Shown: positions 35,269 through 37,548 of the stretch, in pieces
How the letters are laid out: each line of letters begins with the position of its first letter
How positions within the stretch are numbered: position 1 is the first letter of the stretch
Origin: Hyphomicrobiales bacterium
GTDB lineage: Bacteria > Pseudomonadota > Alphaproteobacteria > Rhizobiales > Rhizobiaceae
Length of the DNA: 64,000 nt
Direction: 5' to 3'
Assembly (NCBI GenBank): GCA_900470285.1
Contig: UCAG01000003.1
Coordinates: 372,001 to 436,000, forward strand
Made by a program: the position numbers and the translations under genes
Notes under the pieces: generated by a model
The model's input: only the letters and a program-made list of their open reading frames with translations
What the model was told of the DNA's origin: nothing
The model's database searches: none

Positions 35269-36099
35269 TCAATCATCTGTCCTGACACGGGGGCGCAAAG
35301 CCAGAATAGCTGCAGCGGTCTCTTCGATTGAGCGACGCGTAACATCAATCACCGGCCAGTTATTGCGCTCGCAAATATTGCGCGCATAAGCCAGTTCCTG
35401 TGCAATATTAATACGATCCGTATAGCTTTCCGTATCCAGCCCCGGAGATGTACCCAGCATCCGGTTCTGACGGATATGGGAAATACGCTCGGCGCTAGCA
35501 ATCAGTCCGACAACAAGCGGCTTTTTCACATGAAGCAGCGCTTCCGGCAGCGGTATGCCTAAAACCAACGGAATATTAGCCGTTTTGATCCCGCGATTGG
35601 CCAGATAAATGCTGGTTGGCGTTTTGGATGTACGTGAAATACCGATCAGAATAATGTCGGCTTCTTCCAGATCAGGCGGCAACTGCCCGTCATCATGTTC
35701 CATTGTGAAATTCAGAGCATCAATTCGGCGGAAATAATCAGCATCCAGCACATGTTGCGCACTGGCGCGGCGATGGGCAGGAGCACCAAGATAAGACTGA
35801 AAAGTCGCCAGCACCGGTTCCAGCACCGAAACACTCGGAATGCCCATCTGTGAACAGGCTTCATCAATTTTCAAAGCCAGTTTCTGATCCACCACTGTGT
35901 AGAGAACAATGCCTGGTTCGGCATCAATGTTTTCCAGAATTTTAGCCAGCTGTTTCTCGGTTCGGATCAGCGGATACATATGCTCAATCGCCCGCGCATG
36001 GCTGTATTGAGCGGCCGCCGCACGGCCTGCAGCAAGGAGAGTCTCTCCTGTTGCATCTGAAATCAGATGAAGATGAAAGTAAGAAAGAGTCTTTGTCAC
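35269..36099 (-). CDS. ppsR: Pyruvate, phosphate dikinase regulatory protein (DUF299/PSRP)
   Basis: This kinase/pyrophosphorylase inactivates and reactivates pyruvate phosphate dikinase or PEP synthase. Its ~276 residues include [14 protein letters not shown], the P-loop-like [22 protein letters not shown] and a C-terminal [19 protein letters not shown] start at GTG 36099 ([18 protein letters not shown]), where family similarity begins; an in-frame ATG at 36192 would add 31 residues of unlike composition. It is the homologue of RP001, the gene that flanks Caulobacter and Rickettsia origins opposite hemE, and here it stands in the same place. Confidence 0.9.
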
Positions 36100-36179
36100 A
36101 GATTTCTCACATCCCTGTTGATGGCTGTGTGTAAAAAGTACCGGCTCTGAGACGTCTTTCTCTGCCTGTTGATTTAAAC

Positions 36180-36522
36180 AGGATTCATCCACAGCGCGCC
36201 TGACTGTATATTCGTGACAATAAACACTGTGGGTAACAGGAGCAATTCAAAGATGGAAAGAATTCATTCAATGGTTGTCCACAGGATAGCATGAATGATA
36301 TTTTCAATAAGTATCAGTTTTTATTGATGAATTTTTGGTCGCATTGCTTTTTCCAGATCGATGGGCAATTTATCCACATCAGCCGGTTTTCATGATCAGC
36401 CTGTGGGAAAACTCAGGGAAACATTTAATCCCCGTTATCAACAGACTCTAAGAATCATAAGAATCCAAAAATCATCACTTTCTTTATGGGATAACCGGGG
36501 AAAACCGGTGTGGGTAAATCGC
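36180..36522. other. Probable chromosomal replication origin (oriC)
   Basis: The gap between ppsR and hemE carries a cluster of DnaA-box-like 9-mers: TTATCCACA (perfect) at 36370; one-mismatch boxes at 36185, 36228 (reverse), 36275, 36435 and 36509 (reverse); and a two-mismatch box at 36402 (reverse). An A+T-rich stretch lies at 36285-36350. Three GANTC (CcrM) sites occur within 22 bp at 36444, 36452 and 36461, and one more at 36182. The hemE side of the alphaproteobacterial origin is well established in Caulobacter and Sinorhizobium. ParAB with parS lies 7-10 kb away. Confidence 0.85.
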
Positions 36523-37548
36523 ATGACACGTAAAGTTCTGAACGTTCTCAAAGGTGAAACCGTCTTTCCACCACCAATCTGGATGATGAGACAAGCAGGA
36601 CGTTATCTCCCGGAATATCGTCAGACACGACAGCAGGCAGGAAGCTTTCTTGATCTGTGCTATAATCCTGAACTGGCAACTGAAGTGACACTTCAGCCTA
36701 TTCGCCGTTATGGCTTTGATGCAGCCATTCTCTTTTCAGATATTCTTGTCATCCCTCATGTTCTTGGACGTGACCTTCGCTTTGAAGAAGGAAGGGGACC
36801 TTTAATGACACCTGTGACAGTTGATGAAATCAAAGATCTCGACATTACAGGTAAAGCAGCCAAATTAAGCGCTGTTTATGAAACCGTCAGCCGTTTGCGC
36901 GAGCAATTGCCGAATGAAACCACGCTGCTCGGATTTTGCGGTGCCCCGTGGACTGTTGCCACCTATATGATCGCCGGTCACGGCACGCCGGATCAAGCAC
37001 CGGCACGTCTGTTTGCCTATCAGCACCGCGATGTTTTCATTAAACTGCTGACTGATCTTGCAGATATTTCTGCGGAATATCTGATTGAGCAGCTTAATTA
37101 CGGTGCCGATGCGGTTCAGATCTTCGATTCATGGTCCGGTGTGCTGGATGAAGATTGCTTTGAAGATTTCTGTATCAAGCCGGTTGCCCGCATTGTTAAA
37201 AAAGTTCGCGAAACCCATCCTGAAGCTGTGATTATCGGTTTTCCGAAAGGAGCAGGGATGCTCTATCGGGATTACCGCGCCAAAACCGGCGTAAATGCTC
37301 TTGGGCTGGACTGGTCTGTTCCTTTGAACTTCGCTCAAGAATTACAGCAACAAGGCACTGTACAAGGCAATCTGGACCCGCTGCGTGTGGTTGCCGGTGG
37401 TAAGGCTCTCGATGAAGGCGTGGATGTTATTCTCGAAAAACTGGGGCAGGGACCGCTGATCTTTAATCTTGGTCACGGAATTACACCTCAGGCGCCGCTC
37501 GAAAATGTCGCTCAAATGGTCAATCGTATCCGTCAGGCAGGTGCATAA
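36523..37548 (+). CDS. hemE: Uroporphyrinogen decarboxylase
   Basis: HemE decarboxylates uroporphyrinogen III to coproporphyrinogen III in heme synthesis. The 341-residue protein starts [12 protein letters not shown] at ATG 36523 and shows [17 protein letters not shown] with the catalytic Arg, [19 protein letters not shown] with the catalytic Asp, and [16 protein letters not shown]. The reading frame stays open to 36361, but those 54 extra codons translate DnaA boxes and are not conserved protein. It overlaps hemJ by one base (TAATG). Confidence 0.96.

Follow-up and report, generated by a model that had tools for sequence, protein, structure and literature searches.

Two described chromosomal origins offer the closest comparison for the locus studied here: the experimentally identified Caulobacter crescentus origin and the Rickettsia prowazekii origin are both bounded by hemE and a COG1806 gene, as recounted in part of PMC1914354. 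The same account gives the C. crescentus origin, Cori, a length of ~400 bp, several DnaA boxes, an A+T content above that of its genome, five CtrA sites and one IHF site; the R. prowazekii gap is 384 bp. In the window, i.e. the whole 64,000-nucleotide stretch analysed, which comes from contig C10 (555,638 bases), one of 23 contigs in a 3.81-Mb draft genome, the same pair of genes bounds a gap at 36100-36522. We take this gap to be the main chromosome replication origin of Pseudochrobactrum or a near relative, with a probability of roughly 0.93. An origin had been called here in the initial annotation, and the call is borne out by the box cluster, the change in skew sign and the ppsR-gap-hemE layout. 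Its appeal to an established alphaproteobacterial position also holds, to the extent that PMC1914354 describes ppsR and hemE as boundary genes of the Caulobacter and Rickettsia origins. This origin is thus ordinary in kind and located where established knowledge expects it; the part worth following is a conserved GANTC block inside it.

The left boundary gene is of the ppsR type (the COG1806/RP001 homologue; 35269-36192, minus strand), matching PF03618 Kinase-PPPase at E 1.5e-89 and NF003742 over its cut-off. On the right is hemE (36523-37548, plus strand), matching PF01208 and, over cut-off, TIGR01464. These flanks confirm the earlier placement of the gap between the RP001 homologue and hemE, at 36180-36522. 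The gene-free gap is probably longer than that, because a GTG at 36099 fits the point where ppsR homologues start aligning; the longest ppsR frame opens at 36192, and the GTG is perhaps the true start. A+T content is 59.6% in 36100-36522 against 50.8% in the window, which serves here as the comparison in place of a genome average. An A+T-rich stretch had also been claimed, and one lies at 36290-36339 (78% A+T). A single terminator-like site was found on the minus strand at 36433-36416 (shuffle mean 0.3), and an Rfam scan of 35800-37000 gave no match at E <= 1.

DnaA boxes were scored as mismatches against TTATCCACA, and the seven boxes of the initial annotation (one perfect, five with one mismatch, one with two) were reproduced between 36185 and 36517. 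A search of the genus covered seven genomes including our own; hemE was found in six, the seventh being 61% complete, and the columns given here are those of the six aligned genomes. The perfect box TTATCCACA lies at 36370-36378 (plus strand) and is invariant in all nine columns, as are three with one mismatch, TCATCCACA at 36185-36193 (plus) and the two copies of TTACCCACA at 36228-36236 and 36509-36517 (both minus), and the weak two-mismatch box TTTCCCACA at 36402-36410 (minus). The remaining two, each with one mismatch, vary slightly: TTGTCCACA at 36275-36283 (plus; 8/9 columns invariant) has variants TTTTCCACA and TTATCCACA that are likewise boxes, and TTATCAACA at 36435-36443 (plus; 7/9 invariant), which abuts the first GANTC of the conserved block, has a variant TTATACACA that is also one mismatch away. 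Altogether 60 of the 63 box columns are invariant, against 80 of 120 in the freer segment 36241-36360. The same scan, run over 36091-36530, gave further two-mismatch matches at 36126 and 36128 (minus) and 36349 (plus).

The 64-kb window contains 32 words within one mismatch of TTATCCACA; six of these lie in the gap (6 per 343 bp, against 26 in the remaining 63,658 bp), and no other separate 400-bp cluster has more than two. When the gap was shuffled with dinucleotides preserved, such boxes averaged 0.14 (maximum 3), and six were reached in 0 of 5000 shuffles. A sample of 200 kb from contig C10 contained 48, making the gap ~70 times denser than sampled sequence of that contig; this density comparison, proposed with the original call, leaves that call standing. 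A cluster of three box-like words on another contig (C14) has its start inside a long coding frame and appears fortuitous.

The gap also coincides with a change in strand composition. Among sampled ten-kb stretches of contig C10, 15/16 to the left of the gap have negative GC skew (the exception is +0.006) and 9/9 to the right are positive, the stretch containing the gap (-0.036) being excluded from the count. The skew check that had been suggested therefore shows a sign change at the gap, on one sampled contig in place of the complete chromosome, and does not count against the origin. Within the window the cumulative skew minimum falls at 37027, ~0.5 kb to the right of the gap and so outside it. 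FtsK-orienting octamers are 4 forward and 7 reverse to the left on this contig and 5 and 0 to the right (Fisher p 0.034). The only DnaA (PF00308) match in the genome is on contig C10, ~142 kb from the gap.

Boxes of this kind are found at DnaA-regulated promoters and at titration sites as well as at origins. The gap might accordingly be just a region between divergent genes through which DnaA regulates or is titrated, with the chromosome starting elsewhere. We consider this very improbable: skew changes at the gap, the gap occupies the position established for such origins (in the account of PMC1914354), and no second cluster of more than three boxes occurs in the 200 kb of contig C10, in the window or in the 3-kb surroundings of the 14 perfect boxes of the genome. 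The gap sequence matched nothing in the plasmid collection. A repC-bearing second replicon lies on a different contig (C3), which we count in favour of the gap as chromosomal origin. Read as an origin, DnaA would bind the box cluster, the duplex would open at an unstable stretch nearby, and helicase would be loaded at the opened stretch, with forks departing both ways from a start site within the gap.

The repC region of contig C3 is 90.8% identical to plasmid records of Pseudochrobactrum algeriensis and 89.0% to one of Pseudochrobactrum sp. XF203, and by this identity the source genome is assigned to Pseudochrobactrum or a near relative. The locus itself (L102) carries repC (PF03428) and repB with 91% identity to ~430-kb Pseudochrobactrum plasmids; judged by these genes, it is a second, repABC-type replicon of the source genome.

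Cori resembles the gap in its hemE and COG1806 flanks, its size, its several DnaA boxes and its raised A+T content, and differs in the CtrA sites, and perhaps in the IHF site, that PMC1914354 reports for it. No strict CtrA site (TTAA-N7-TTAA) occurs in the gap, only three loose TTWW-N7-TTWW matches, and such loose matches are common in the window (1.2 per kb); we therefore do not file the gap with the CtrA-regulated, Caulobacter-type origins. For IHF, a degenerate consensus gave no match with at most one mismatch in the positions tested. The likeness to the R. prowazekii origin is one of layout, through the boundary genes.

The open frame that would extend hemE upstream to 36361 had been dismissed as a side effect of origin sequence, and rightly, in our view. 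The extension is open in the window and in 3/5 same-genus relatives, and 152 of the 162 columns in 36361-36522 are invariant in the genus, as might be expected of a genuine N-terminal extension. In the other two relatives (L100, L101) the frame is shifted and contains stops. At the family level, a stop in the hemE frame occurs within 162 nt upstream in 66/73 gaps, and the distance from the conserved block to hemE is spread over all three frames (26, 21 and 26). We give the protein-coding reading practically no credence and place the hemE start at 36523.

For the wider comparison, the best 80 hemE loci of a larger number were combined with five same-genus loci, giving 85. A ppsR gene is divergent from and adjacent to the hemE gap in 79 of them; for cross-genus counts the six same-genus rows (L016, L097-L101) were dropped, leaving 73 gaps. 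DnaA boxes are 28-fold denser in these 73 gaps (159 in 29.2 kb) than elsewhere in the same loci (120 in 617 kb); the corresponding factor for GANTC is about five, and GANTC enrichment has been reported for intergenic regions generally (PMC8116508, in part). None of the 79 gaps is without a box, and the median is two; only 11 have four or more, so that close matches are more numerous in this genus than in most related ones.

Judged by these alignments, family-wide conservation within the gap is highest not in any DnaA box but in a block at 36427-36466 (plus strand) built around a cluster of GANTC sites, a feature that the initial annotation overlooked in this role. GANTC starts in the gap at 36182, 36444, 36452 and 36461. 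Their count alone is unremarkable (4 against a shuffle mean of 1.8, reached by 174 of 2000 shuffles). The last three sites fall within 22 bp, as had been pointed out, and are the sole triple within 25 bp among the 84 sites of the window. The 17-base core of the block, ACAGACTCTAAGAATCA at 36441-36457, is found with at most four mismatches in 81/85 loci, and the remaining four are hemE copies away from ppsR. Among 43 non-redundant rows, which were chosen by the same four-mismatch rule on the core, ten columns are invariant. All 43 rows keep the first GANTC, whose free base is mostly C (37 rows; G in 5, T in 1), and 23/43 keep the second. In the block, adenines are fixed every third base. The commonest 8-base word shared by the family gaps, ACAGACTC (59/73), is likewise not a DnaA box.

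A 40-column profile of the block matches 213 of 247 sampled family genomes, with one match each (197/229 among those of good quality), and gives no match in the other 34; the filters of the large family, order and class searches were stricter, at the cost of weak matches. In a sample of the order, 5/150 genomes match, all from this family, and the 20 listed among the 145 misses belong to other families. In a sample of the class, 4/289 match: one is our own genome, and the other three are marginal (E 0.001-0.004). None of the eight neighbour proteins occurs within the ~3-kb loci of these three, which are probably chance. In all 34 family loci fetched, mostly best-scoring ones, the block lies between ppsR and hemE. 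The block could hence serve as a one-motif locator of chromosomal origins in a large family. A literature search found no paper on it among open-licence papers, in the portions available; older rhizobial origin mapping in subscription journals falls outside that scope, and we do not claim the block as unpublished.

Six of the 85 loci have no adjacent ppsR, and these show what the block accompanies. (i) In genomes G008 and G010, only one hemE was found, and it lies on a different contig (L043, L074), with no block in its 9-kb locus and no DnaA box in the 500 bp upstream. The origin loci of these genomes (L129 and L128, respectively) retain the block and two or one boxes between ppsR and hemJ; there ppsR, the gap, hemJ and rho are contiguous, hemE having departed. 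(ii) Genomes G007 and G009 have two hemE copies, and the block occurs only at the copy beside ppsR. The second copy (L038, L048), whose protein is ~69% identical to that of the window, may be a duplicate preceding relocation. (iii) Genomes G011 and G012 (L083, L088) have no ppsR match, and the block lies between maf and hemE; maf, aroE, coaE and hemE are in place, pointing to a possible loss of ppsR or an incomplete assembly. The block is thus kept at loci without hemE or without ppsR and is absent from other hemE copies, and it therefore follows the locus rather than either gene alone. As a locator it still works in both cases seen with hemE gone. Skew and FtsK octamers around the block in G008, G010 and G403 (single-contig) are too weak to mark an origin there.

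Duplex stability was calculated in 40-bp segments with nearest-neighbour energies. Over a 450-bp region, the weakest segment starts between -10 and +45 of the block in 64/73 loci. When the entire ~9-kb locus is considered, for the 69 loci exceeding 8 kb, the weakest segment is at the block in 60, as it is in L128 and L129, both without hemE. In our own window the block ranks 515 of 63,961 segments and is more stable than a stretch starting at 36297, where the weakest segment of the gap lies. That stretch falls within the A+T-rich 36290-36339, a poorly conserved part of the gap in the genus and the first alternative opening site. Set against each other, the family stability and the ranking in the window make the block a plausible opening site for the family and one of two candidates in the source genome. 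That the block, together with the T-rich bases to its right, constitutes the main opening element of the family is a suggestion to which we would give even odds.

A basal unwinding rule has been formulated (PMC8287927, in part) in which a box with at most two mismatches is followed, after a spacer of 0-16, by three or more NAN triplets on the opposite strand. The perfect box at 36370 has this arrangement: its spacer is 7 nt long, and four such triplets follow (to 36397). The boxes at 36185, 36275, 36236 (minus) and 36410 (minus) show it less well; the rule is a loose one. The fixed adenines of the block, every third base, recall the same system. As a canonical DnaA-trio the block was nonetheless rejected, because the box at 36435 is followed by its five NAN triplets on the box strand, and the 3'-to-5' loading described in part of PMC6669920, taken together with the usual strand convention for DnaA-trios, places them on the other. 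The 9-mer before the first GANTC is within two mismatches of a box in 4/43 family rows and within three in 17/43 (letter shuffles 0.6% and 3.4%), and by this measure it is only a degenerate box in the family.

At the E. coli origin, opening or re-firing is coupled to the cell cycle through GATC sites and Dam. There, the unstable opening repeats of oriC contain GATC sites and lie beside a DnaA box that points at them. The block would be comparable to these repeats in being unstable, in having a methylation site inside and in adjoining a DnaA box that points at it, with GANTC and CcrM in place of GATC and Dam; we claim no sequence homology. A conserved GANTC with a free middle base and a CcrM homologue in the genome are the marks of a CcrM-methylated control element, and both are present: contig C12 has a 383-aa ORF that aligns to 349/350 positions of the NCBIfam CcrM model (E 5.3e-193), with a score of 640.6 bits, under the cut-off of 830. 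Rickettsiales lack CcrM (PMC11514494, in part), and a GANTC block there would carry a different meaning. We infer that the block is part of an opening and methylation-control module. Methylation of its GANTC by CcrM might, less surely, couple opening or re-firing to the cell cycle. The methylation part of this proposal is limited by the Agrobacterium results given in the same source (PMC11514494), where CcrM acts mainly on the repABC origin and its overexpression changed ori2 and did not significantly change ori1.

A different role for the block within the origin has to be weighed here, that of a promoter of the hemE-hemJ operon, perhaps GcrA/CcrM-regulated, with no part in initiation. The block is A+T-rich, in most loci it precedes hemE by 63-117 bp, in G008 and G010, where hemE has left, it continues to precede hemJ, and GcrA uses GANTC near promoters (PMC8116508, in part). 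Against this role, neither the moved hemE of G008 and G010 nor the second copies in G007 and G009 have the block. No sigma-70-like promoter was found in 36050-36600 by a scan specific to that type, and the block is a single-copy element that in most loci is also the least stable site. We regard the promoter role as possible, if rather unlikely. Opening at the block leads to a more specific and tentative proposal, in which it would be a new single-copy, GANTC-anchored, unstable opening element at which CcrM methylation licenses or delays chromosome opening, kept when hemE leaves and marking the origin in most of the family's genomes. It makes testable whether CcrM acts directly on the chromosomal origin in this family or only via promoters (gcrA, repABC).

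Finally, some observations concern the family loci themselves. Many family gaps (e.g. L037, L069) contain in their left half a second shared element ~320-350 bp upstream of hemE, GACTGTATCAGATG followed by TTGTCCACAATTC, which the window lacks; ACTGTATCAGA occurs in 29 of the 73 gaps and TTGTCCACAAT in 32. One of the same-genus rows (L016, JAHREI010000001.1) is titled Bacillus subtilis strain SK6B4, and has a hemE 98% identical to that of the window within the same ppsR-origin-hemE locus. It is, on this similarity, very probably a mislabelled Pseudochrobactrum-like genome. L016 and L099, with contigs of identical length (1,126,282), are probably the same genome.
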